Below, piece after piece: positions 47,906 to 64,000 of a DNA stretch of 64,000 nt. The stretch is from positions 1-64,000 of the forward strand of contig NZ_JAGFNS010000002.1 of the NCBI RefSeq assembly GCF_017592555.1. The letters are read 5' to 3'. The position numbers were made by a program, and so were the translations under genes. The notes below the pieces were generated by a model. It worked only from the letters and a program-made list of their open reading frames with translations, ran no database searches and was not told the origin of the DNA. Source of the DNA: Actinoplanes flavus. Lineage in GTDB: Bacteria; Actinomycetota; Actinomycetes; Mycobacteriales; Micromonosporaceae. The number at the start of each line of letters is the position of its first letter. Position 1 is the stretch's first letter.

Positions 47906-48001
47906 GGAGGCGTTTGAGTTCCTGGTGGTCTCCCCCGCCTTCAAAGCGGGTGGGCCTGGCTCAGCCTGGCCGGCGGGTTCGATTCCTGTCCGCCTCCGCC
48001 A
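47906..48001 (+). tRNA. selC: tRNA-Sec (UCA anticodon)
   Basis: A 96-nt selenocysteine tRNA including an encoded CCA. Acceptor stem GGAGGCG/CGCCTCC with discriminator G, anticodon stem CCCGC/GCGGG and loop CTTCAAA give anticodon TCA (47941-47943). The long variable arm (GGCCTGG...) and unusual length are typical of tRNA-Sec. It lies 27 bp upstream of selD, in the same direction. Confidence 0.96.
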
Positions 48002-48028
48002 TAAGACGTCTACGGGGGGAAACGTCGG

Positions 48029-49038
48029 ATGGATCTGGTCGAGGACTCGTTGCGCCTGACCCAGTTCGCTCGCGGCGGCGGCTGTGCCTGCAAGATTCCG
48101 CCGGGTGAGCTGGAGTCCGCGCTCGCCGGGGTCTTCGACGGCGGCCCGGCGCCGTCGCCGTGGGAACTGCTCGTCGGCCTGGAGTCCGGCGACGACGCGG
48201 CGGCCGTCCGGCTCGACGGTGACACCGCGATCATCGCGACCACCGACTTCTTCACACCGGTGGTCGACGACCCGTACGACTGGGGCCGCATCGCCGCCGC
48301 GAACGCCCTGTCCGACGTGTACGCGATGGGCGGCGACCCGGTCCTCGCGGTGAACCTGCTGGCCTGGCCACGTGACCTGCTGCCGATGACGGTCGCCTCC
48401 GAGGTGCTGCGCGGCGGATACGCCATCGCCCGCGAGGCCGGCTGCCATCTGGCCGGCGGGCACAGTGTCGACGACGCCGAGCCGAAGTACGGGCTGGCGG
48501 TCACCGGGATCGGCGACGCCCGCCGTCTGTTGCGAAACGACGCGGGCCGGCCCGGTGTCCCGCTGAGCCTGACCAAGCCGTTGGGTGTCGGCGTGCTCAA
48601 CTCCCGCCACAAGGCGACCGGTGAGGTGTTCCCGCAGGCCGTCGCCGCGATGACCACCTTGAACCGGGCGGCGTCCAAGGCCGCCCTGGCGGCGGGCGTG
48701 GTCTGCGCAACCGACGTGACCGGCTTCGGTCTGCTCGGGCACCTGCACAAACTCGCCCGTGCGAGCGGGGTGACGGCGGTCGTCGACGCGGCCGCGGTGC
48801 CCTGTCTCGACGGTGCCCGCGAGGCGGCGCGCGACGGTTTCGTCAGCGGCGGGTCGCGCCGCAACCTCGACTGGGTGCGGCCCCACACCAGCTTCGGCCC
48901 GCACGTCACCGAACTGGAGCGGCTGCTGCTCGCCGACGCGCAGACCTCCGGCGGCCTGCTGGTCGCCGGCGAGATCCCGGGCGGCACGGTGATCGGTGAG
49001 CTGATCGCCTTCGACGGCGAGCACACGCTGGTGGTGCG

Positions 49039-49042
<4 letters not shown>
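48029..49042 (+). CDS. selD: Selenide, water dikinase
   Basis: A 337-residue enzyme that makes selenophosphate from selenide and ATP, the selenium donor for Sec-tRNA synthesis. The N-terminal catalytic pair is Cys19 and Lys22 in GGGCACKIPPGEL; the active position is cysteine, not selenocysteine. Later motifs are TTDFFTPVVDDPYDWGRIAAANALSDVYAMGG in outline, HSVDDAEPKYGLAVTG, and TDVTGFGLLGHLHKLA. Length and ends match the AIR-synthase-type family. selA starts inside its stop codon, and tRNA-Sec is just upstream. Confidence 0.96.
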
Positions 49043-50324
<1,282 letters not shown>

Positions 50325-50334
<10 letters not shown>

Positions 50335-52106
50335 TCGCGACCGCCGGGCACGTCGACCACGGCAAGTCGACGCTGGTGCGCGCCCTCACCGGGATGGAAC
50401 CCGACCGGTGGGCAGAGGAACGCCGCCGTGGCATGACCATCGACCTCGGCTTCGCGTGGACGAGCCTCGCCGACGACGAGATGACCGCGTTCGTCGACGT
50501 GCCGGGCCATCAGCGGTTCGTGACGAACATGCTCGCCGGGGTCGGCCCGGTCACCGCCGTGATGTTCGTCGTCGCCGCCGATGAGGGCTGGCGGCAGCAG
50601 TCGGCGGAGCACCTGGCAGCGTTGCACGCGCTCGACGTACGCCACGGGGTTCTCGCCGTCACCCGCAGCGACCTGGCCGATCCCGGCCCGGCGATCGCGC
50701 AGGCCCGCGAGCAGTTAGACGGCACCGGCCTGGCCGGGATTCCGGCGGTCGCGGTCTCCGCCGTGACCGGTCAGGGCCTGGCGACGCTGCGACACACTCT
50801 GCGGGACCTCACCCGCGCCCTTCCCACACCGGCGCCGGGACCGGCGCGTCTGTGGGTGGACCGGTCGTTCAGCGTACGGGGCAGCGGCACCGTGGTGACC
50901 GGGACGCTGACGTCCGGGACCGTGGCGGTCGGCGACGACCTGCTGCTCCACCCGTCCGGCCGTGCCGTGCGGGTCCGCGGCCTGCAAAGCCTGAAAACGG
51001 ACGTCGACCGGGCGGGCGCGGTCTCCCGGCTCGCGGTCAACCTGCGCGGGCTGAGCACCGACGACGTACGCCGGGGCCACGCCCTGGTCCAGCCGGGCGC
51101 CTTCGCCCCGGTCACGTCCATGGACGTGCGCCTGGTCCGGGCCGCCGACCGGCTGCCCGCCCAGCTGACCCTGCACCTGGGGTCGGCGGCGGTGGCCGTA
51201 CGCGTGCGGATGCTCGGCCCGTCCGCCGCCCGCCTCACCTTGGCGACGCCGTTGCCGCTGCACGTCGGCGAGCGGGGCCTGCTCCGTGATCCGGGCGCCC
51301 GGCACGTCGTCGCCGGGTTCGTCGTCCTCGACACCATGCCGCCGGGACTGCACGCCCGCGGCGACGCCCGGCGGCGGGCCACCGCTCTGGCCGGGATGCG
51401 TGATCGTCCGACGGCCGCCGAGGAGGTAGGCCGCCGCGGCGCGGTTCGGCGCGAGGCGCTGGTCACGGCCGGTGTCCTCACCCCGGACGACGCCGATCTG
51501 GACGGGGTGGTCGCCGCCGGCGGGTGGCTGGTCGACCCGGTCGTGTGGAAGCAATGGGCGGCCGCACTGCACCGGGTCGCCGACGAGTGGGCGGCGGCGA
51601 ACCCGTTGTCTCCCGGCATCGCCCCCGACGCCGCGGCTCGCCGGGCCGGGATCACCGATGCGCGGTTGGTCGGAGCCCTGGCCGCCGAGGCGGGGCTGGT
51701 GCTGGACGGCAGCGGAGTACACGGCCGGGACACCGGCATCCGCTTCCCGGAGCCGGTGCGCCGCGCGCTGGACGAGATCTGTGCCGGGTTGCATGACGCC
51801 CCGTTCGCCGCGCCCGGCGCCGAGGATCTCGCCCGGCTGGGCCTGTCCCGGCAGCACCTGGCCGCCGCCGTCACCGCGGGCGTTCTGATCCGGGTCACCG
51901 ACGGCGTCTATCTGCTGCCCAGCGCGCCCGCCGAGGCGCTGCGGCGGGTCGCCGCGCTACCGCAGCCGTTCACGGTCAGTCAGGCCCGCGCGGCATGGGA
52001 CACCAGCCGACGGGTGGCGGTGCCGCTGCTGGAGTACCTCGACCGGCAGGGCGCCACCCGCCGGCTCGACACCGCCCGCCGCATTCTGACGAAGGAATCT
52101 CGATGA
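50325..52106 (+). CDS. selB: Selenocysteine-specific elongation factor
   Basis: A 593-residue SelB from a GTG start that overlaps selA by 10 bp. The G domain shows GHVDHGKST (G1), DVPGHQRF (G3) and a VTRSD variant of the guanine-specificity motif. An EF-Tu-like domain II region (about 165-245) follows, then SelB domain III and C-terminal winged-helix repeats (about 355-593). The last repeats include LLPSAPAEALRRVAALPQPFTVSQARAAW in outline and normally bind the SECIS hairpin. Presence of the full C-terminal region implies that the organism reads UGA as Sec at SECIS-bearing mRNAs. Confidence 0.95.
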
Positions 52107-52541: not shown

Positions 52542-53078
52542 ATGCGTCAGCAGATCGCCACGGCGATAGCGGTGGGTGGCGCGCTGCTGCTGGTGGCCGC
52601 CGGCGTCGGGCATCTACGCCGGCGGGTGCATCTCGCGGCGGTACTGGCGGCGCAGCGCATGGTTCCGCGGTGGACGCACCGGCCGTTGGCCGCGGTGGTC
52701 GCCGTCGTCGAGATCGGCGCCGGTGCCGGCGCCGTCGCCGGGTGGCTGACGGCAACCTGGCCGTTGATGATCCCGGCGTCGGCGGTGTACGCGGCATTCG
52801 GTGTCTACACCACGGTGCTGCGCATCCGGCGACCCGGAACACCCTGTGGCTGCTTCGACGGCGACAGCGCCGTCTCCTGGAGCGTGGTGGTGCGGGCCTG
52901 GATGTTCTGTGGCGCCGTGATCGTGGCGGCGTCAGCGCCGGATGCGGACGCCGCCGTGACGGATCGGATGGTCGTCGGATGCGCGGCGATACTGGTCGCC
53001 CTGATCGGTTGGCTCGCGCCTCAGCTTGCCGGGGTGGGCAGGCCGGTCCGGACCGGAGGCGCCGGCCCGCGCCGGTGA
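52542..53078 (+). CDS. MauE/DoxX-like membrane protein
   Basis: A 178-residue membrane protein with four to five helices. It has the MauE-type layout: GVGHLRRRVHLAAVLAAQ after helix 1, VVEIGAGAGAVAGW in helix 2, and the redox-suspect loop GTPCGCFDGDSAVSW with its CxC pair. MauE proteins take part in methylamine dehydrogenase maturation and related disulfide chemistry. It starts 25 bp after the rhodanese gene with GGGAGAGAGAAGG upstream. Together with the MauD-like thioredoxins at 55.7 and 61.3 kb it points to an extracytoplasmic redox pathway in this island. Confidence 0.78.
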   Translation: MRQQIATAIAVGGALLLVAAGVGHLRRRVHLAAVLAAQRMVPRWTHRPLAAVVAVVEIGAGAGAVAGWLTATWPLMIPASAVYAAFGVYTTVLRIRRPGTPCGCFDGDSAVSWSVVVRAWMFCGAVIVAASAPDADAAVTDRMVVGCAAILVALIGWLAPQLAGVGRPVRTGGAGPRR

Positions 53079-54360: not shown

Positions 54361-55195
54361 TCAGATCACCGCGGCGAAGAACCCCCCGGCGAACGCCATG
54401 ACCAGAATGGCCTTGATCCACCGCTCGTAGAGGGAGAACTCCAGGTCCCACGAGTTGTCGTCGCTGAACCGCAGGTTGGACGTCGTCATGAGGGAACGGC
54501 CCAGCCCGAAGCCCAGGCCCGCGACCAGTGCGGCGCCCGGTGACGCGAGCAGCGCTACGGCCGGCAGCAAAACGTACGGCAAGCCACTGGTGACGTAGGT
54601 GCGCAGGCCGGTGCCCATCTCAAGGCCGAACTGCAACGGACCGAAGAACCGTCCATGACGGAACACCGTCACGGGCACCAGACGGGCATTCTGCGGCAGC
54701 CCGAACGACAGCAGCCCGAACTCCCGCACGGTGATGACGGCGAACCAGCACACCAGCAGCACGACCCACACGCCCGACGGTGCCGCCAGACGCAGAAGGG
54801 AGCCGACCACGAGGGCACCGAGCGCGGTGACCAGCGCACCGAGCACCTGCCCCAGACAGAAGGAGAATTGTGGATGACCTCGCCCGACCGGCGAGTTCAG
54901 CACGAAGGCCGAGTTGCGGCTTCAAGTGGAGCCGCTGACGGCGAAGCCGCCTGCCGCACCCGCGACCAGCCACCCGATGAGCGCGGCCACGGAAACGGCA
55001 CCGATGTGCAGCAGAACACCACCGGTCGCCGCGGCCCCCCCCAGGGGCCCCGGGGCCCCCCGGGGGGCCCCCCCCCCCCCGGGGGGTGCGACCGCCACCG
55101 TGGTCCCCACCACCCCCCCGGGGCCCCGGGCCACCGACCTGGCCCGCGGCGACAAGCGGGTGCCACAGCACGCGCCGTGGCGTAACGACCGTCAT
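54361..55195 (-). CDS. Candidate selenoprotein: polytopic membrane protein of module A (in-frame UGA; frame disturbed by G/C tract)
   Basis: The ATG at 55195 overlaps the six-cysteine gene stop (ATGA). The frame reaches a UGA at 54922-54924 and then continues open, with no further stop, to 54361. The last residues before UGA (GGFAVSGST) and the first after it (SRNSAFVLNSPVGRG) align with the module B protein (YSTSGSV, then SHNSAALLTSSVWRG). After the UGA come four or five helices and FGLPQNARL, LQFGLEMGTGLRTYV and GFGLGRSLM, all matched in module B. A GTG at 54903 could start a shorter protein but has no ribosome site. The distance ATG to UGA is 271 nt, one too many, and 76 nt longer than in module B; the excess maps to the G/C tract at 55035-55130. 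I read it as a Sec protein with a real or sequencing-derived frameshift. Confidence 0.65.
54879..54895 (-). promoter_or_regulatory. SECIS-like hairpin, module A
   Basis: CTCGCC-GGTCG-GGCGAG forms a perfect 6-bp stem with a GGUCG loop. The loop begins 33 nt after the UGA, inside the 16-37 nt range given for bacterial SECIS elements, and GGU in the loop matches the E. coli fdhF SECIS loop. Confidence 0.6.
55035..55130. repeat. G/C homopolymer tract, possible assembly artefact
   Basis: About 96 bp made almost only of runs of C and G (up to 14 C in a row), inside the N-terminal part of the module A membrane gene. It shifts the reading frame and has no counterpart in the module B paralogue. It may be true slippage or a sequencing/assembly error. 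Confidence 0.75.
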
Positions 55196-55767
55196 CAGGC
55201 CCGAGCGCGGCAGATCGTCAGGTACGTGCGCGTCGATCCGCCGCCGGACACGCGGGTGTTGCCGTCCGAGCAACGCCACACCTTGGTGCCGGTCTTCCAC
55301 TTCCACGCGTTCTTGGTGGTGCTCGAGCCGCACGCGGTGGAGATCGGCGTGTACGTGTAGAGGATCGGGGCGTCGCGCTCGGTGCCCTTCTTGTGCCACC
55401 CCGACGAGCAGTACATGCTGCCCATGAAGTCACCGCCGAAGCAGGCCGCCGGCTCGTTCACGTACGAGCCGCCGGTGTCCTTCTCCTCGCTGTAACCGCG
55501 GGGGTAGGCATCGCTGCAGTCGGTCCGGTCCCAGCCCTTGAGCCCGTTGGGGCCGTTCTCCGCCCGGGCCGCACGCTGACCCGCCAGCGGCGACCAGCTC
55601 AGCGCGGTGGCGCCCAGGGTCAGGCTGGAGAAGGCGACACCGCGCAGGACCGTACGGCGCCGGCTGGACGCCTTGCCCAGTCCGGCCAGAGCCAGGGTCG
55701 GCTCGGTGACAGCCGAGGTCTCGGCGTCGGGGATCTGTTCCATGTCAAGCGGCATTGGCCCGCCCAT
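55195..55767 (-). CDS. Secreted six-cysteine protein, module A (MauA-like?)
   Basis: Up to 190 residues; starts at 55755 and 55743 are also possible. An N-terminal twin-arginine-like region (SSRRRTVLRGVAFSS) and a hydrophobic stretch ending near GQRAARAE indicate export. The mature part has exactly six cysteines, in order TDC, AAC, MYC, TAC, WRCSDG and TIC, matching those of the module B paralogue, so three disulfides are likely. It is rich in Trp, Tyr and Gly. Export plus dense disulfides beside MauD- and MauE-like proteins recalls the methylamine dehydrogenase light chain MauA, but that has twelve cysteines and a tryptophan-derived cofactor, so any link is distant. Its stop overlaps the Sec membrane gene. 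Confidence 0.75.
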   Translation of the reverse strand: MGGPMPLDMEQIPDAETSAVTEPTLALAGLGKASSRRRTVLRGVAFSSLTLGATALSWSPLAGQRAARAENGPNGLKGWDRTDCSDAYPRGYSEEKDTGGSYVNEPAACFGGDFMGSMYCSSGWHKKGTERDAPILYTYTPISTACGSSTTKNAWKWKTGTKVWRCSDGNTRVSGGGSTRTYLTICRARA

Positions 55768-56263
55768 TCTTCTCGGATTGACTCAACAGGCCCCACGACT
55801 GGAGGACCGGAGTGACGTCACGTTCGTTGGCCGGCAGGTGCAGACGCCGTACCCGGCCCTGCCCGTCCACCTGCAGTAGGATCGGCGTGCTCAGATGAGC
55901 GATCGCCGACCACGCGCGGTCGTCCCGTACGACCGGGAGACCACCGGTGAGTCCGTTCCACTGCTCCTCGGGCTCGAAGGTCAGCAGGACCGCTGCCGCA
56001 CTGTCCGGTCCGGACATCACGGACCCGACCCGCTGAACCACGGCGATGCACAACGGGCAGCCACTGTCGACGGCCAGGACCAGGCCTCCCCGGCCACCGG
56101 CCACGCTGGCGGGCAGCTCGATGTCGACCCGCTCGCCGGTAGCCGCCGCGGCATCGATCTGAGCCCGCAGCATCCGGACCTCGCGCAGCACCGCGCCGAG
56201 GCCGAGGAACAGAATGATCATCGCGGCCCAGGTCAGAAGCAACAGGGCCCACAACGGACTCAC
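55745..56263 (-). CDS. MauD-like thioredoxin-fold protein, module A
   Basis: A 172-residue membrane-anchored thioredoxin-like protein from a GTG start 4 bp after the upstream stop. An N-terminal helix (SPLWALLLLTWAAMIILFLGL) is followed by a coiled linker, then a thioredoxin-like domain with a CPLC active site in AVDSGCPLCIAVVQRV and later VPV-like strands (GLPVVRDDRAWSAIAHLSTPILLQVD). Its layout matches MauD, which reduces or isomerises disulfides outside the membrane. The 3' end overlaps the six-cysteine gene. The module B paralogue has CGTC in the same place. Confidence 0.8.
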   Translation of the reverse strand: MSPLWALLLLTWAAMIILFLGLGAVLREVRMLRAQIDAAAATGERVDIELPASVAGGRGGLVLAVDSGCPLCIAVVQRVGSVMSGPDSAAAVLLTFEPEEQWNGLTGGLPVVRDDRAWSAIAHLSTPILLQVDGQGRVRRLHLPANERDVTPVLQSWGLLSQSEKNGRANAA

Positions 56264-56267
56264 CGAA

Positions 56268-56981
56268 CTACCGTCCGGACCACTCGACGTTGATGCCGTC
56301 GAGCCAGCCGAGCAGTTCCGAGTCCGGCACGTCCTCCAGCGCATCGAGATGAACCTCGGCCACGGCCTTGGAGAAGCCCATGGTGAAGGCGAAGTTCTCC
56401 ACGCCGGTGGCCGTCGCCTCGACGCCCGGCAGCCGGGACCGCCAGACCTCTCCGGACGCGGTCTTGGCGCCGCGTGCCTTCGGCAGCAGGTCACGACCCC
56501 GGTCGGGGGACGGCACGTTGACCGAACCCCGGTTCTCGATCGTGGCGAGCACATGCTCGCTCGCGACGCCCAGCAGCGTCGACTTCTTCGGGACGACGCG
56601 CATGCCCTCCGGCTGGTCGTCGATGTCGAGCACGGAGAACAGACCGGTCAGATTGACGTCGGTGGGCGCGGGCCCGGAGAAGACCGTCATCAGCTCGTGG
56701 TGCTTGCCCAGCAGCGACACGATGGTGGAGCTACCGTCGTCGGCCTCCGAGATGACCACCTCCCGGTTGCCGACCACGAGCCGCTTCTTCACCGAAGCGG
56801 CCACGAAGTACGTGGTGGCGAACTCGTGGTTGCCCCGCGTGCCGATCTGGAAGCCGCGCCCGTAGTTGCCGCCGACGAACCGCACTCCGGCGATCCGATC
56901 GGCCAGACTGGACCCGTCGGCCCACTGCACACGGACCCAGGCGCCGCTCGGCGCTCGGGTGTCCAAAGTTGTTAACGCCAT
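56268..56981 (-). CDS. Conserved cytosolic protein, module A first gene
   Basis: A 237-residue protein without a signal peptide or helix, beta-rich. It is recognisably related to the first gene of module B, most clearly at the C-terminus (LLGWLDGINVEWSGR against LLATLDIRWSR, and AVAEVHLDALEDVPD against AVAMINDDLGRNPD). No catalytic motif is seen. The ATG at 56981 is preceded by a GGGGGGTTT stretch. It heads the four-gene unit, with only 4 bp before the thioredoxin-like gene. I do not recognise a family. Confidence 0.7.
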   Translation of the reverse strand: MALTTLDTRAPSGAWVRVQWADGSSLADRIAGVRFVGGNYGRGFQIGTRGNHEFATTYFVAASVKKRLVVGNREVVISEADDGSSTIVSLLGKHHELMTVFSGPAPTDVNLTGLFSVLDIDDQPEGMRVVPKKSTLLGVASEHVLATIENRGSVNVPSPDRGRDLLPKARGAKTASGEVWRSRLPGVEATATGVENFAFTMGFSKAVAEVHLDALEDVPDSELLGWLDGINVEWSGR

Positions 56982-57551: not shown

Positions 57552-58772
57552 CTAAACCGTGGAATTCCTGCGGCCGGTGCCGTTCGCCTGGCGGAAGCGG
57601 TCTACCGCGTCCAGGAGCGCAACGGCCGCGATGTCGATGTCCTCGTGAGTGCTCCAGCGCCCGAGCGACAGACGCAGCGCCCCGAGCGCCTGTGCGGTGG
57701 GCACGCCCATGGCGGTCAGCACCGGGGACGGGATGTGGGCGCCACTGTGGCAGGCGGAGCCGGTGGATGCGGCGATCTGCGGTGCGGCGGTGAGCACGTC
57801 ATGACCGGCGACGCCGGTGATGCTGATGTTGAGGGTGTTACCCAGCCGCTGGGTGACGGGTCCGTTGAGGTGGATCCGGTCGGGCAGCGCGCTGGTCAGT
57901 CTGTTGTGCAGATCGTCGCGCAGCGCTGCCAGCTGTTGCGGCAGGCCGTCACGCAGATCGTCGGCCGCGAGCTGGGCCGCGGCGCCGAGTGCGACGGCCA
58001 GCGCGACGTTCTCGGTGCCGGCTCGTAGGCCGTGTTCCTGGCCGCCGCCGTAGACCACCGGCTCCAGGCGTACGCCGTCGCGTACGTACAGTGCGGCGAT
58101 GCCCTTGGGGGCATACATCTTGTGCCCGACGACGGTAAGTAGGTCCACCCCCGATTCGTTGACGTCGAGGGCGATCTTTCCAGTGGCCTGTGCGGCATCG
58201 CAGTGCATCAGTGCCCCGCGTGCGTGCGCGATGGCGGCGAGTTCACTGAGCGGCTGCAGGGCGCCGGTCTCGTTGTTGGCGGCCATCACCGAGATCAGAA
58301 CGGTGTCGTCGGTGATGGCTTCGGCGAGCACCTCCGGGTCGAGGATGCCGTGGCCGTCGACCGGGAGCACCGTGACCCGGGCGCCGTGCAGCCGGTGCAG
58401 GGCCCGGCAGGTTTCCAGCACGGCCGGGTGCTCAGTGATCTGGGTGATCACGTGTGGCCGCCGACGGCCGCAGGCCAGTACCGGACCGCGCAGGGCCAAC
58501 AGGTCGGCTTCCGAGCCGGACGCGGTGAACACGATCTGCTGCGGATCCGCCCCGATGAGGTTCGCGACCTGCGCACGCGCCCGGGAAAGGGCGGCCCGCG
58601 GTCCGGCGCCGTAGGCGTGACCGCTGGACGGGTTGCCGAACACGGAGGTCAGATGGGGCAGCATCGCCTCGGTGACGCGCGGGTCGATGGGGGTGGTGGC
58701 GTTGTAGTCCAGATAGACCGGCATGCCGGCAAGTCCGGGGTGCGCGGCACGGCTGTCGGTGGTGCTTCCCAT
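57552..58772 (-). CDS. Cysteine desulfurase (NifS/IscS-like)
   Basis: A 406-residue class V aminotransferase-fold PLP enzyme. It starts VYLDYNATTPIDPRV, has ASGSEADLLAL, HCDAAQATGK, the PLP lysine Lys218 in VVGHKMYAPKG, and the catalytic Cys341 in STGSACHSGAH. The activity is sulfur release from cysteine; NifS-like enzymes also release selenium from selenocysteine and can feed SelD. No Fe-S scaffold or tRNA-thiolase gene is adjacent. It lies between the two Sec-candidate modules, so a selenium-donor role is a reasonable inference. GGAGCGAGG precedes the ATG at 58772; an ATG 48 bases later is possible. It may be transcribed with the sigma pair upstream. Confidence 0.92.
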   Translation of the reverse strand: MGSTTDSRAAHPGLAGMPVYLDYNATTPIDPRVTEAMLPHLTSVFGNPSSGHAYGAGPRAALSRARAQVANLIGADPQQIVFTASGSEADLLALRGPVLACGRRRPHVITQITEHPAVLETCRALHRLHGARVTVLPVDGHGILDPEVLAEAITDDTVLISVMAANNETGALQPLSELAAIAHARGALMHCDAAQATGKIALDVNESGVDLLTVVGHKMYAPKGIAALYVRDGVRLEPVVYGGGQEHGLRAGTENVALAVALGAAAQLAADDLRDGLPQQLAALRDDLHNRLTSALPDRIHLNGPVTQRLGNTLNISITGVAGHDVLTAAPQIAASTGSACHSGAHIPSPVLTAMGVPTAQALGALRLSLGRWSTHEDIDIAAVALLDAVDRFRQANGTGRRNSTV

Positions 58773-58897
58773 CCTCGCTCCAACGGGGTTCTGGTGGCGG
58801 CCGCCCTCTGTGCGGCTGTGGGCTTCAAGGACACCGGCGACCGGGAGGACGAGGACATCGTCGTCGCCTCCCGGTCCGGCGCTCGGCTGGTGATCGC

Positions 58898-59644
58898 CTA
58901 CTTGGGCGCGGTCCCGATCGTCGAACCCGGCGCGTTCGGGATCCGATAGCGGCGCCCGTCCGGCAACGTCGCCCAGACCTCGATCTGCTCGGGAGTGACC
59001 GTTGAGGACACCTCCACGACGGCCCCTTCGTCTGCCTGGCCCACCTTGTCGGTGTCGCTGCCGCTCGTCACGCTGATCTGCCGATCGGCGGGTGCCTGAA
59101 CGAGAACGAACTTGCCGCCGTCCGCCTGCTGCCGTACGACGTAGAAGCCGAGGCCGGTCGGCCGGACCGCGACGCACACGTCGTCGCCTTGAGTGCATCC
59201 GTAGTCGTAGGACAGATAGTCCAGTGCCCGGACGAAGGGCCCGGATCCGCTGGCGACGAAGATCTCGGCGGCTTTGCCGCCGGCTGCCGCCTCCTGCTCG
59301 TTGGGGGTTCGGCGTACGGCGACGAGCCGTTCCTCGCCGGCCTGCCCGACGGCGAGGATCTGGTTGCTGTCGATCGTCCGGCTGGAGGCGCCGCTGAGTT
59401 CGGCGGCCAGCGCGGCGGCAGCGCTGAGATCGGGGTCTGCTGGAAGCCCGTCCGATCCGGCGTTCACCTGTTGAAAGCCGATGAACCCGGCGGCTGCGAC
59501 CACCGCGGCGGCTCCGGCGGCGCCGATGGCACGCCGGCGGCGATAGGTCTGGGCGTCCTTGACGACGCGCTGGGTGAACCCGGGCGGAAGCTGACCGGTG
59601 CTGGCCGCCTGGTCGAGCAGGTCGTGCATGCCGGTGTCCGTCAT
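58898..59644 (-). CDS. Membrane-anchored protein paired with ECF sigma factor (copy 2)
   Basis: A 248-residue protein with the same plan as the copy at 53080: a short cytosolic part (1-39, ending TYRRRRAIG), one membrane helix (about 40-58) and an extracellular domain with one cysteine pair (YGCTQGDDVCVAV). Its ATG overlaps the sigma stop by 4 bp. The extracellular cysteine pair could sense redox state, which would fit an island rich in thiol proteins; this is speculative. No ZAS motif is visible. Confidence 0.7.
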   Translation of the reverse strand: MTDTGMHDLLDQAASTGQLPPGFTQRVVKDAQTYRRRRAIGAAGAAAVVAAAGFIGFQQVNAGSDGLPADPDLSAAAALAAELSGASSRTIDSNQILAVGQAGEERLVAVRRTPNEQEAAAGGKAAEIFVASGSGPFVRALDYLSYDYGCTQGDDVCVAVRPTGLGFYVVRQQADGGKFVLVQAPADRQISVTSGSDTDKVGQADEGAVVEVSSTVTPEQIEVWATLPDGRRYRIPNAPGSTIGTAPK

Positions 59645-60144
59645 CTTTTCTGGCCTTCCGCTCCCGATGCGACACAATCCTTCACCAGTTCTCGGAGGCG
59701 TTGCAGCCCTCGCGATGATTGGCTTTTCACGGATCCGACCGAGCAGTCCAGGGTCGTCGCCGTCTCCTGCTCGCTGTATCCGAGCCAATAGCGCAGGACA
59801 ATCACCGCCCGCATGCGTGGTGGCAGTTCCCGTAATGCGTCGAGGAGCATGTTCCGGTTATCTGCACGGCTCATTTCGTCACGGGTGGCGGCGGCGTCGG
59901 GAACCTCTGTCTGGCGACGTCGGACCCACGGTGACCGCTGGCGGCTGAGCAGGCGATTGAGCATCGCTCGGCGAACGTAGGCCTCGGGCTGTTGATCGCG
60001 TAGCTTCCGCCATCGCGGAAAGGAGCTCACGAGGCTGTCGTGCAGAAGGTCTTCGGCATCGCTGACGCTGCCGCAGAGCAGCACTCCGAACCGGAGAAGC
60101 CGGGGGCCACTGTGCTCCACGAATGCCGCGAAGTCATCTTTCAT
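59641..60144 (-). CDS. SigE-family ECF sigma factor (copy 2)
   Basis: A 167-residue ECF sigma factor of the SigE-like group. Region 2 has LLCGSVSDAEDLLHDSLVSSF, the linker YVRRAMLNRLLSRQRSPWVRRR, and region 4 LPPRMRAVIVLRYWLGYSEQETATTL. GGAGCAAAC precedes the ATG at 60144. It is divergent from module B, with a 407-bp region between, and is followed by its membrane partner and the cysteine desulfurase. Confidence 0.9.
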   Translation of the reverse strand: MKDDFAAFVEHSGPRLLRFGVLLCGSVSDAEDLLHDSLVSSFPRWRKLRDQQPEAYVRRAMLNRLLSRQRSPWVRRRQTEVPDAAATRDEMSRADNRNMLLDALRELPPRMRAVIVLRYWLGYSEQETATTLDCSVGSVKSQSSRGLQRLRELVKDCVASGAEGQKR

Positions 60145-60551: not shown

Positions 60552-61259
60552 ATGGCAAGGACAAAGCAGACCCATCGCGCAATCGCGCCCAACGGCGATG
60601 CGGTGACGCTGTCCTGCGTCACCGAAACGATGCAGGACGATTGGTTCTGGCACGCCCGGATGACCAGCAAGACGCTCGCCATCGGTGTTTCGGTCGGCAC
60701 GCACGAATACGCCGAATACGGCATTGCGCACAACGACTACACCGTCACGCAGACCGTGCAGTACCGGGGGCGGCCACTGCTGGTCGCCGTGTCCCCGGAC
60801 CGCCTTGGATGGCAGGTCGTCTGGAACGGCCCGTACCACAGCATGATCTTCGGCGGCGCGGGGTCCGCACCGGCCCTGCGCGCCATTGTCGAACTGCTCG
60901 ACCAGATCACGCTCAAGGACAGCCCGGCCGGCCTGGAAATCAAGCCGCAGCCCGGCAGCGACATCGTCATGTGGAGCCTTTACGGCGTGAAGTTCACCGA
61001 TTCAGGGATGGTGACGATCTATCCCCGCGACGATGCCGCCGCCCTGATCCCGAAGCAGGAGGGACTCGCCGTCGCCCAGGGCACGGTCTGGAAGAAGACC
61101 GTGGACGCCGCCGATGGCAAGGCCAGTCTCGGCAAGTACCTGCACGCCGGGACGGAGGCCGTCGCGATGATCAACGACGACCTCGGGCGCAACCCCGACG
61201 TCACCGCCGACGGGCAGGAGCAACTGCTGGCCACCCTCGACATCCGATGGAGCCGCTGA
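60552..61259 (+). CDS. Conserved cytosolic protein, module B first gene
   Basis: A 235-residue protein without a signal or membrane segment, related to the first gene of module A. Segments such as GVSVGTHEYAEYGIAHNDYTV and WQVVWNGPYHSMIFGG are beta-rich, and the end LLATLDIRWSR matches the module A paralogue. The single cysteine (LSCVTE) is not conserved there. The ATG at 60552 is preceded by GGGGATGG. It heads module B, with the thioredoxin-like gene beginning two bases after the stop. Function unknown. Confidence 0.75.
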   Translation: MARTKQTHRAIAPNGDAVTLSCVTETMQDDWFWHARMTSKTLAIGVSVGTHEYAEYGIAHNDYTVTQTVQYRGRPLLVAVSPDRLGWQVVWNGPYHSMIFGGAGSAPALRAIVELLDQITLKDSPAGLEIKPQPGSDIVMWSLYGVKFTDSGMVTIYPRDDAAALIPKQEGLAVAQGTVWKKTVDAADGKASLGKYLHAGTEAVAMINDDLGRNPDVTADGQEQLLATLDIRWSR

Positions 61260-61260
61260 G

Positions 61261-61758
61261 TTGAACGCCGTCATCCTCGCAATGCTGATCATGTCGTGGG
61301 TGGCGATCGCGCTGCTCGTGCTCGGCTACGCGGGCCTGGTCGCCCAGATCAGGGATCTGCAGCGCCGGGCCGTCCCGGACGCCCCCACGACCGTGTTCCC
61401 GGAGCTCGCCGCGACCGGGCCCGGCGCCTACACCGTGGCGCTGACCTTGAGCTCCACCTGCGGCACCTGTGACGAGGCCTTCGAGATCTGGCCGCAACTG
61501 GCCAGCGAGCTGGTCGCCGGAGGCCACCGCCCGGTCCTGATCAGCATCGACAACTCGCCCGTCTGGACCGAGCGGGGCGCCGAAAACCTGCTGCTGGCCA
61601 GCGACCTGTCGGCGCCCCTGCTGCTCACGTACCAGCCGGCGCTCGTCAGGTTCGACTCCACCGGCGCACTGTTCTCCGCCGACCCGCTCGGGTCCGCAGC
61701 CGGCCTGCGCGAAGCGGTTCACGAGTTGCTGGCCCCGTCCGTTCCCTCCGCTCGCTGA
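61261..61758 (+). CDS. MauD-like thioredoxin-fold protein, module B
   Basis: A 165-residue protein from a TTG start (GGAG about 8 nt upstream). An N-terminal membrane helix (AMLIMSWVAIALLVLGYAGLV) is followed by a thioredoxin-like domain with active site CGTC in LSSTCGTCDEAFEIWP and a downstream LSAPLLLTYQPALVRF strand. It would sit on the outer face of the membrane. Paralogue of 55745-56263. The likely role is dithiol-disulfide exchange with the exported six-cysteine protein or the Sec membrane protein. Confidence 0.82.
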   Translation: MNAVILAMLIMSWVAIALLVLGYAGLVAQIRDLQRRAVPDAPTTVFPELAATGPGAYTVALTLSSTCGTCDEAFEIWPQLASELVAGGHRPVLISIDNSPVWTERGAENLLLASDLSAPLLLTYQPALVRFDSTGALFSADPLGSAAGLREAVHELLAPSVPSAR

Positions 61759-61777: not shown

Positions 61778-62335
61778 ATGTCGACGTTGCTGGATCGAAT
61801 CCCGGAGATTCGGATCGACCTGGAAGCCGGCGGTGAGGGCAGCAGTGCCCGGCCGATGGCCACCCGGCCCGCGACGACGCCGGTGCCGGACCTCAAGATC
61901 ACGGTTCCCGGAGTCGGTCGCCGGACCTTCCTGCGCGGAGCTGTCGCCGGTGGAGGCGCGCTCGCCCTGAGCATGCTCGGCTGGGTAGCCGAGCGAGTAC
62001 CGGCCTTCGCCGCCAAGGGCGACCGCACCACGTTGAGTCCCACCCACTGCATCAGCTACGACACGCCCGGAGGCGACATCCCCTGCTGGGGCCGTGACTA
62101 CATCGGCTCCAGCTACTGCGGGTCCGACGGCCGCCACCGCACCGACACGGTGAACAGCGGCAGCTACTCGACCCTGTACAGCTGGGACCCCGCCTGCGCC
62201 GGATACGCCGGCTGGTTCTGGCGGACCAGCGCCGGAACCACGAACTGCTGGGACGGCCACTACTACACGCGCACCAACGCGACCGGAAAGCTGAACGGCC
62301 CCTACACCACCATCTGCAAGAAGAAGGTCAGTTGA
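61778..62335 (+). CDS. Tat-exported six-cysteine protein, module B (MauA-like?)
   Basis: A 185-residue protein. A long N-region holds a clear twin-arginine motif in GRRTFLRGAVAGGG, then a hydrophobic core and cleavage near PAFA-AK. The mature part has six cysteines (THC, IPCW, SYC, PAC, TNCWDG, TIC), in the same order as in module A. It is rich in aromatic residues. Tat export implies folding, or cofactor loading, before export. The ATG is preceded by AAGGAGACACATC. The stop overlaps the TTG start of the Sec membrane gene. Confidence 0.82.
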   Translation: MSTLLDRIPEIRIDLEAGGEGSSARPMATRPATTPVPDLKITVPGVGRRTFLRGAVAGGGALALSMLGWVAERVPAFAAKGDRTTLSPTHCISYDTPGGDIPCWGRDYIGSSYCGSDGRHRTDTVNSGSYSTLYSWDPACAGYAGWFWRTSAGTTNCWDGHYYTRTNATGKLNGPYTTICKKKVS

Positions 62336-63111
62336 GCACGTCACCAGACCTGCTGCGACCCGCCCTGGCCCGGCTGGCCGCGTCCCCGGTCGCGGTGGCG
62401 GCAGGCGTCTCCCTAGCCTGCGCGCTGCTGGCCGGCGCCGGACTGCTCACCGCCGGAGTCGCCGGACTGGTGGTGGCGGCCTGTGCCGTCGGCACAGCCG
62501 CGGGCTACTCGACCTCCGGCTCCGTTTGAAGCCACAACTCAGCAGCGCTGCTGACCTCGTCGGTCTGGCGAGGGACCCACAACGTCTCCTATTTCAACCG
62601 GGGCCTGATCCTCGGAGGCACAGCGACCGGGATACTGCTTCTCCTGCCGGCCGCCGTGCTGCAGCTCCTTCCTCCCACAGCACGAGTCGTCGCGCTGTGC
62701 GCCGTGGTGTCGCTGGCGCTCGGATGCGACACGAAGGTCGTACCGTTCCGCCTGCCGCAGAACGGCCGACAGGTACCCAGCGACATCATCGTCCGGCAGG
62801 ACGGGACCGGAGCACTCCAGTTCGGTTTCGAGATGGGCACCGGCCTGCGTACGTTCGTGCCGACCCATCTGCCGTACGTGCTGGTCGCCGTGGCGTTGTT
62901 CGCCGCACCCTGGTGGGCGGCGCCGGTGCTGGGCGCCAGTTTCGGGCTGGGCCGCACGTTCATGGTGCACTCCGCGGTCCGCTCGGGTAACGCCACCGCA
63001 TGGGACCGCCGGTTCGCCACGAACCGGACGGTGATCGTGGCCGCATGCTGGGCCGCCACCGCAATGGGCCTGACCGTCCTCATCGGGGATTTGCTGCGTC
63101 AGAGCGGGTGA
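62332..63111 (+). CDS. Candidate selenoprotein: polytopic membrane protein of module B (Sec at codon 66)
   Basis: A 259-codon frame (TTG start overlapping the upstream stop) containing one in-frame UGA at 62527-62529, codon 66. N-terminal part: two hydrophobic segments (VAVAAGVSLACALLAGAG, VAGLVVAACAVGTAAG), then STSGSV-Sec-SHNSAALL. C-terminal part: VWRGTHNVSYFNRGL, further helices, FRLPQNGRQ, LQFGFEMGTGLRTFV and SFGLGRTFM. After the UGA the frame has no ATG, GTG or TTG for 42 codons, so an independent gene would lose the conserved segment and first helix; read-through is the simplest explanation. Homology with module A runs across the UGA on both sides. A SECIS-like hairpin lies at 62555-62573, and selA, selB, selC and selD are 10-14 kb away. 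The protein family is not recognised. Confidence 0.75.
62555..62573 (+). promoter_or_regulatory. SECIS-like hairpin, module B
   Basis: CCTCGTC-GGTCT-GGCGAGG forms a 7-bp stem (one G-U pair) with loop GGUCU. The loop starts 33 nt after the UGA, the same distance as in module A. The U of the G-U pair is C in module A, keeping the pair. GGUCU is also the core of the E. coli fdhF SECIS loop. Confidence 0.65.
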
Positions 63112-63130: not shown

Positions 63131-64000
63131 GTGGCGGCATGCTGCGCCCGCCGACCGAAGCATCATGTGCCACAAGACCCGCAGCTATCCCGCGCTCGCA
63201 GCCTGATCGAACCGGCCGGCGGTGAGGTCGTCGCCGAGCTCTTCGACATCGGGCTGTCACGCGCGTTGCCGTGGAAGCGGCGGCCGGAAGCGACGCGTTC
63301 GCTCGATGCGATCAAGAGCGCGGAGCGAGACTTCGACGCCGTGGTCATCGGTGAGCCGCAACGGGCGTTCTACGGCAGCCAGTTCGGCATGACCTTCCCG
63401 GTCTTCGTGCACTACGGCGTCGGCCTGTGGGTGCCCGAAGTCGGCGGTGCCATCGACCCGGGCTCGGACGCTCACGATCTCGTCATGGCTCTGTACGGCG
63501 GCATGAGCAAAGGCGAACGCAACCGCATCAAGATCCGCGTCCACTCCGCGATGAAGGCACAGACCGAACTTGAAGGCCGCTACCTCGGCGGACGCCCGCC
63601 CTACGGCTACCGCCTCGCCGACGCCGGCCCGCACCCCAACCCCGGCAAAGCCGCCGAGGGCAAGCGCCTCCACCGGCTCGATCCGGATCCCGTCACCGCT
63701 CCGGTCGATCGGCGCATCTTTGAGGAGTACGCGGCCGGGCGCGGCATGATCACCATCGCACGCGGCCTGACTCAGGACGGCCCGCCTCTACTACCGCTGC
63801 AAGGCATCCCGCGGATTCGTCCGCCAGCATGAGATCGCCCACCCGCCCGTGCTGTACCTCCGCGAAGACACCATCACCGAACCCGTCGACCGGTTCCTGC
63901 GCGACGAACTCGCCGGCGACACGCTCACCGCCACCCTGCGCGGACTCGCCGACGCCCACTACCGCGCCGAACTCGCGCGGCACCAGGGCGCCGACCAAAG
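63131..64000 (+). pseudogene. Decayed large serine recombinase
   Basis: A remnant of an actinobacterial large serine recombinase. The part to about 63785 reads ELFDIGLSRALPWKRRPEA, VVIGEPQRAFYGSQFG, GGMSKGERNRIKIRVHSAM and RYLGGRPPYGYRLADAG, all typical of the family. The N-terminus with the catalytic serine is missing. Near 63785, where the recombinase and zinc-ribbon domains should follow, the frame jumps: a different frame continues with YYRCKASRGFVRQHEIAHPP and VYLRED-like LYLREDTITEPVDRFL, the end of the same family. So an internal deletion and a frameshift have occurred. The gene runs off the window. It marks an old integration next to the Sec island. Confidence 0.8.

Follow-up and report, generated by a model that had tools for sequence, protein, structure and literature searches.

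Predicted selenocysteine-containing membrane protein family encoded beside thioredoxin-like and Tat-type Cys-rich proteins in actinomycetes

DsbD and CcdA carry two catalytic Cys residues in kinked helices, and the roles of the mau genes encoding MauE, MauD and MauA provide a second point of comparison for membrane proteins of the kind described here. Among bacterial selenoproteins, formate dehydrogenase is the most widely distributed family, and pairs of Cys- and selenocysteine (Sec)-containing homologues are the basis of one of the two main routes to bacterial selenoproteins. Table 1 of a 2026 catalogue (PMC13188914) lists TsoB, a rhodanese/DsbD-fusion-like selenoprotein (NF045694, after Haft and Tolstoy 2025), as well as the YeeE/YedE thiosulfate transporter, a selenoprotein with domain PF04143 and motif GUxSG; section 7 of the same catalogue covers glycine reductase selenoprotein A, which acts in glycine reduction. 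According to the deep-Sep paper (PMC12013277), selenoprotein A was previously the only selenoprotein without Cys homologues, and the deep-Sep method may not correctly identify selenoproteins that lack such homologues.

The window studied here is a stretch of 64,000 nucleotides from Actinoplanes flavus. An earlier sequence-only reading of the window had described two open stretches in one frame, parted by a lone UGA at 62527-62529 and followed by 42 codons without a start, as well as a hairpin with loop GGUCU at a SECIS-compatible distance and all four sel genes in the window. These observations were borne out; a single plus-strand frame (62332-63111) is interrupted by TGA at 62527-62529, the first in-frame start past this UGA is GTG 62656 (i.e., after 42 start-free codons), the hairpin lies at 62555-62573 with 32 nt from UGA to loop, and selC, selD, selA, and selB lie at 47906-52106. 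The same reading had proposed that the product is a membrane protein with Sec, from a family not known to be described as selenoproteins, and conservation of the UGA, co-variation in the SECIS-type hairpin, and linkage to tRNA-Sec support this as the best reading; we put the probability that the gene at 62332-63111 encodes a selenoprotein, as predicted, at roughly 0.96. A diverged second copy of the gene, with its own gene cluster (module A), lies on the strand opposite to the cluster described above (module B), and the motif around the UGA in both modules is GS[V/T]-U-S-x-N-S-A. Homologues with this type of motif are referred to here as the main family, and weaker relatives with STWSP[C/U]G in place of the main motif as the sister family. 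The UGA of the second copy, the conserved gene cluster, the sister family, and a weak DsbD-type kinship go beyond what the sequence-only reading had stated. The relevant features of the window are:

47906-47997, plus strand: tRNA-Sec (selC); Rfam RF01852, 62.7 bits, and ARAGORN
48029-49042, plus strand: selD; Pfam AIRS and AIRS_C, Cys at the active-site position by eye
49039-50334, plus strand: selA; Pfam SelA, 1.9e-97
50331-52106, plus strand: selB; TIGR00475, 287 bits, above cut-off
52542-53078, plus strand: MauE-family membrane protein; Pfam MauE, 2.2e-16
54361-55195, minus strand: second copy of the Sec-type gene (module A), a diverged homologue with inferred start
54878-54896, minus strand: SECIS-type hairpin of module A, from folding and a scan with the bSECIS limits
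54922-54924, minus strand: in-frame UGA of module A, at the same column as the module B UGA
55195-55755, minus strand: A3, Tat-type Cys-rich protein (module A)
55745-56269, minus strand: A2, thioredoxin-like protein with CPLC (module A)
56268-56981, minus strand: A1 protein (module A)
60552-61259, plus strand: B1, about 235 aa, first gene of the cluster; its family is found beside 81/81 copies (best 80 of 132 relatives)
61261-61758, plus strand: B2, membrane-anchored, thioredoxin-like (fold inferred from sequence), with a CxxC invariant in 17 rows
61778-62335, plus strand: B3, Cys-rich, with Tat-type signal; invariant RR and Cys columns
62332-63111, plus strand: Sec-type membrane protein gene (module B); read-through frame, TTG start inferred
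62527-62529, plus strand: in-frame UGA, residue 66, predicted Sec; TGA kept in 81/81 homologues from named loci
62555-62573, plus strand: SECIS-type hairpin (module B); stem 62555-62561/62567-62573, loop GGUCU 62562-62566

The TTG start of the module B gene overlaps the stop codon of B3, and the sel genes are followed by a rhodanese gene and then by the MauE-family gene. An AlphaFold2 model of the module B protein (mean pLDDT 93.3, pTM 0.90) has helix breaks at residues 61-64, adjoining Sec66, and at residues 171-179, at the motif GTG; by analogy, we take the latter to be the place of CcdA's second Cys. The likeness to CcdA and DsbD (PF02683, PF13386) includes, in the model, a predicted Sec located just past a helix break and, in the sister family, an SPU that aligns with the SPC of CcdA as well as DsbD_2 matches for some proteins; the main family differs in having no conserved counterpart of the second Cys, and its Sec would replace the first. 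Among eight sister proteins, that of locus L105 passes the PF13386 cut-off (27.0 versus 24.9) and two more match below it; many of the sister proteins listed in the database bear the DsbD_2 label, which is the only contact of this family with Pfam. When compared with eight CcdA proteins from the A. flavus genome and from relatives, the sister profile gave only a weak match (2.6%, E 0.018) that places SP-U over SPC, and the main-family profile gave none. Neither PF02683 nor PF13386 scored above its gathering score in any of 65 main-family proteins, and no redox family was found among the weak Pfam matches of these proteins. NCBIfam searches with 12 main-family proteins yielded only chance-level matches (best E 0.01), and neither NF045694 nor another of its selenoprotein models was matched; in a comparison of the model with solved structures, none stood out, and no CcdA or DsbD structure was among the matches listed. 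Neither Pfam nor NCBIfam (June 2026) contains the main family, and its motif and setting are both missing from the 119 selenoprotein families in the parts of PMC13188914 (2026) used here. We thus predict from sequence comparison that the main family is an undescribed selenoprotein family, which may work like DsbD/CcdA, by analogy, without being filed as a member.

TsoB is comparable to the main family in that it is a catalogued selenoprotein that includes a DsbD-like portion, but differs by its UxxxxU motif with two Sec residues and by its rhodanese part. YeeE/YedE resembles the predicted selenoprotein in its integral membrane location and in having Sec within a Gly/Ser motif; however, PF04143 is absent from the matches listed for 65 main-family members. 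Glycine reductase selenoprotein A is a different protein, to which no relation of the main family was found. Features reminiscent of the mau cluster are a MauE-family gene, located beside the sel genes here and in three of the six sister loci that were listed gene by gene, a membrane-anchored thioredoxin-like protein, and a Tat-type Cys-rich protein; PDB profile searches with the exported proteins gave no match to methylamine dehydrogenase light chain but only weak matches, mostly over the Tat signal, or nothing relevant, and the model of B3 reaches a pLDDT of only 63.

Relatives in named genomes were located with the pattern FG[FLV]EMG[TS]GxR, which lies after the UGA, and the best 80 loci of 132 relatives were kept; as only this post-UGA pattern was used, the scan did not select for the UGA. 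TGA was found at the same column in 81/81 copies (80 named loci, best 80 of 132 relatives), and none of these 81 copies had TAA, TAG or a sense codon there; the carriers comprise at least 76 named genomes from many genera. In a sample of the class, a read-through search identified a match in 15 of 296 genomes, and all 12 strong matches (E < 1e-20; eight genomes, including that of A. flavus) had exactly one in-frame TGA. In a sample of the phylum, 3 of 396 genomes, A. flavus among them, had a match at E <= 1e-15; of the two matches from outside the class, one copy (G666) again has TGA at the column and the other (G427) is a sister-type protein, likewise with TGA. Among close relatives (21 pairs), pN/pS was 0.398 over the 24 codons before the UGA and 0.396 after it, and this equality indicates that the two sides are translated as parts of one frame. 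The SxNS residues directly after the UGA show little or no variation, and the main family also has invariant Glu, Arg, and Asn residues. The Sec column is the sole conserved Cys/Sec position in the main family, with Cys found in 10 of 65 proteins at the next best column.

Published limits for bacterial SECIS elements (PMC13188914, section 5) specify a stem of 4-16 bp, a loop of 3-9 nt with G within the first two loop places, a distance of 16-37 nt from the UGA, and a minimum free energy of at most -7.5 kcal/mol. The module B hairpin, with a 7-bp stem, a 5-nt loop that begins with G, a distance of 32 nt and -10.0 kcal/mol for the hairpin alone, satisfies all four limits. In a scan of the bSECISearch type, as the sequence-only reading had suggested, 74 of 80 distinct homologues were within these limits, compared to 165 of 1600 codon-shuffled controls; the remaining six homologues fall short of the -7.5 kcal/mol limit. 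A single hairpin proves little, since under the same rule a hairpin follows 221 of the 1377 TGAs of the window (16%). Only 2 of 200 shuffles fold at least as well as the 25-nt stretch of the hairpin (z -2.54), but the 60-nt stretch, taken as a whole, shows no advantage over shuffled versions (z -0.54). Across the 80 sequences, four of the seven stem pairs show double changes, and none of 500 shuffles reached any of five co-variation measures. Sliding the partner strand reduced paired cells from 88.8% to 30-50%; in the counts of doubly changed pairs and of further pair types, however, slides of +2 and +3 match or beat the true structure. In 62 of the 80 sequences, the outermost pair of the stem is not formed. 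Stem pair 31-45 is GC in 32 sequences, UA in 30, UG in 17, and GU in one, and is unpaired in none of the 80; one side of this pair is the first base in a codon for Ser or Ala, and the other is the synonymous third base in a codon for Arg. Among the 81 copies (best 80 of 132 relatives), all 33 with G as the partner base use CGC for this Arg, all 48 with T use CGA or CGG, and CGA accounts for 30 of 81 codons at this position versus 38 of the 938 CGN codons found elsewhere in these genes. This choice among synonymous codons is not explained by protein-level selection. The weight of the evidence rests on conservation and co-variation, not on the single hairpin.

With regard to the Sec machinery, tRNA-Sec genes were scored with a threshold of 62.7 bits, which marks a gap in the class scores (remaining genomes at or below 55.2 bits); this gap was used in preference to the Rfam cut-off (47 bits), passed by 126 of 296 class genomes. 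By this threshold, tRNA-Sec was found in 8 of 8 carriers of the class sample versus 74 of 296 class genomes overall. Most of these 74 genomes are without the Sec-type gene, which therefore accounts only partly for the use of Sec in this class. Homologues that keep the UGA in genomes consistently lacking selABCD, which the sequence-only reading had named as evidence against a selenoprotein, did not emerge as a pattern, since 74 of 76 named carriers (50/50 and 24/26; genomes behind the best 80 of 132 relatives) have tRNA-Sec at or above 62.7 bits. The two carriers without detected tRNA-Sec are metagenome bins, one of which (L083) has SelB at 273 bits; no SelB was found in the other (L043). Among the eight class-sample carriers, seven have a SelB that passes the cut-off, compared with 59 of 296 genomes overall, and the eighth scores 240.7 against a cut-off of 242.25. 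A separate SelB search at E 1e-60 identified the protein in 14 of 16 carriers, the misses being bin L043 and Streptomyces uncialis, where a SelB-like frame and tRNA-Sec are located inside the locus itself (L097). In a number of loci, sel genes lie within 10 kb of the Sec-type gene. None of 36 matches resembling formate dehydrogenase alpha (E <= 1e-60) in 14 carrier genomes, A. flavus included, had an in-frame stop, and a Sec-containing formate dehydrogenase therefore does not explain why the machinery is kept. Amycolatopsis vancoresmycina DSM 44592 was included among orphan selD organisms in 2016 (PMC5029168, Table 1); in strain NRRL B-24208 of this species (L052) we found tRNA-Sec at C1:96506, SelB at C1:97880, and the Sec-type gene. 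Two or three tRNA-Sec genes of at least 66 bits were observed in carriers G318, G313, G320, G349, G350, G335, and G380.

The sequence-only reading had also suggested a search for homologues with UGA or Cys at the Sec column; UGA was found there in all 81 copies from named loci, as detailed above, and Cys proved to be the exception in the main family and common in the sister family. The main-family profile found 400 database proteins, of which 120 were listed; a single full-length record among these 120 (P0010) has Cys at the Sec column. The main family may have escaped notice because it has almost no Cys homologues. The sister family was found at loci L102-L107, L110, and L139 as well as L100 and L101. 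Its profile aligns with that of the main family over 158 columns after the motif (98.8% probability, E 1e-16); the motif columns lie outside this alignment, and their equivalence is judged from the same position at a helix end together with a multiple alignment. In the class sample, nine genomes besides that of A. flavus have the sister family, with TGA at SP-U-G in seven and TGC in two. SelB is above cut-off in six of the seven UGA genomes, with a score of 231 in the seventh (G178), and the two Cys genomes have only SelB matches at or below the level of EF-Tu. tRNA-Sec at or above 62.7 bits was found in five of the seven UGA genomes versus neither of the two Cys genomes (47.4 and 55.2 bits); the UGA genomes without it (G150 and G022) have SelB, and their assemblies are fragmented. 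Among the sister proteins listed, all 20 that are full-length have Cys at the position, and the other 100 are shorter than 215 aa and do not include it. This distribution is the usual Sec/Cys pattern, and we predict that TWSP[U/C]G marks a second undescribed selenoprotein family.

Three other explanations of the UGA were weighed against decoding as Sec. If the UGA were a true stop, the gene would encode two proteins, the second from an internal start, and such a C-terminal piece is indeed what is deposited as a protein; 118 of the 120 records listed are shorter than 200 aa and lack the motif, which is also expected if gene calls simply begin after the UGA, and some copies have a start codon 6-7 codons past it. 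The first in-frame start, however, varies from 6 to 57 codons past the UGA among copies, and is 42 codons on in module B, yet the SxNS residues that precede it are conserved; moreover, TAA or TAG never replaces TGA in the 81 copies (best 80 of 132 relatives). The sequence-only reading had itself raised proteins with their own starts after the UGA as a contrary outcome, and the data point the other way, with the same protein-level selection before and after the UGA. We consider a true stop to be even less probable than decoding of the UGA as Trp or another ordinary amino acid, which is itself very improbable. Trp is present at the column in one full-length record (P0005), a 241-aa protein from a metagenome contig of 921 bases; either its codon is a genuine one for Trp, or UGA was translated as Trp in gene calling. 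The co-variation of the SECIS-type hairpin, the near-restriction of the gene to genomes with tRNA-Sec, and the Cys found in P0010 and in the 20 full-length sister proteins all argue against Trp. A pseudogene or sequencing error is least probable of all, with a likelihood close to nil; while the frame of module A is broken by a patch of G and C blocks, this UGA is shared by copies in 76 named genomes that span many genera, which refutes such an origin of the UGA. For the selenoprotein that we favor, it is highly probable from sequence features that the product is a Sec-containing integral membrane protein and likely a redox partner of the adjoining thioredoxin-like protein.

The genes beside the Sec-type gene bear on its function. 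In a neighbour search (E <= 1e-3, same strand, within 4 kb) with profiles partly built from the same loci, the A1 and A2 families were each found beside 81/81 copies and the A3 family beside 77/81 (best 80 of 132 relatives); the order A1-A2-A3 with the Sec-type gene last, in an operon-like arrangement, was found in 71/81 copies from the same set. The A2 family combines one predicted helix with a thioredoxin-like part that includes the invariant CxxC. The A3/B3 family has an invariant RR, a conserved NxWxW and five Cys columns that are occupied in at least 90% of 24 rows; B3 itself matches Pfam TAT_signal at E 0.035, under the Pfam cut-off, and its matches to PDB profiles are weak (best E 0.0026) and mostly over the signal stretch. 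A MauE-like gene lies within 8 kb of only 14/81 main copies (best 80 of 132 relatives). Among the six sister loci listed gene by gene, MauE was confirmed in L113, L114, and L115, and a thioredoxin-like CxxC protein was identified by eye in four. A Tat-type protein that is far richer in Cys is present in seven of the eight loci L111-L118, and LGFP repeats were found in all three Tat-type Cys-rich proteins of sister loci that were examined.

In the mechanism we propose, the hairpin 32 nt downstream of the UGA would recruit SelB carrying Sec-tRNA, whose genes lie at a distance of 10-15 kb, and ribosomes are therefore predicted to read the UGA as Sec. The predicted Sec would sit where a kinked transmembrane helix is broken and may be joined to the CxxC of membrane-anchored A2/B2 through a mixed selenide-sulfide; as its own chain has no conserved Cys partner, it would be resolved by another protein, most simply through this CxxC. 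The Sec protein and A2/B2 would then supply or remove electrons in disulfide maturation of A3/B3 outside the membrane, in a manner possibly analogous to that of DsbD/CcdA or MauD/MauE. We lean slightly towards such a redox-partner role in maturation of exported proteins. The alternative is a selenoprotein that functions without a thiol relay, e.g., in sulfur or selenium uptake (YeeE/YedE type) or as a quinone-linked oxidase (DsbB/VKOR type). The main family has no clear fold or family match, its invariant Glu, Arg, and Asn residues would be compatible with a binding site, and a Sec-containing YeeE/YedE family is catalogued in Table 1 of PMC13188914; by contrast, the neighbouring proteins match the CxxC thioredoxin-like profile in 81/81 copies and the Cys-rich Tat-type profile in 77/81 (best 80 of 132 relatives), and Pfam detects DsbD_2 in some sister proteins. 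We regard this alternative as rather unlikely. Under the favored maturation role, a broader proposal would be that the two families (GS-x-U-S-x-N-S and TWSP-U-G) represent selenium-driven maturation of Tat-exported, disulfide-rich proteins across many actinomycete genera, in some of which this would be the main reason that the Sec machinery is kept; we see the odds of this proposal as even.

The predicted selenoprotein would represent a previously unknown client for the Sec machinery of Sec-decoding actinomycetes, A. vancoresmycina being one example, and points to selenium chemistry in the actinomycete membrane and cell envelope. Annotation practice is affected as well, as the Sec-type gene is deposited as a shortened protein, mostly labeled "hypothetical," in the database records seen.

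In module A, a run of G and C blocks at approximately 55037-55130 shifts the frame in the N-terminal part of the Sec-type gene, and is probably an assembly error. Two further frames were observed near the modules. Between modules A and B, a minus-strand frame (57552-59675) appears to encode a class-V aminotransferase, possibly of the cysteine desulfurase or selenocysteine lyase type, and a resolvase/recombinase-like frame (63131-63832), which scores just below the Pfam cut-offs, directly follows module B.
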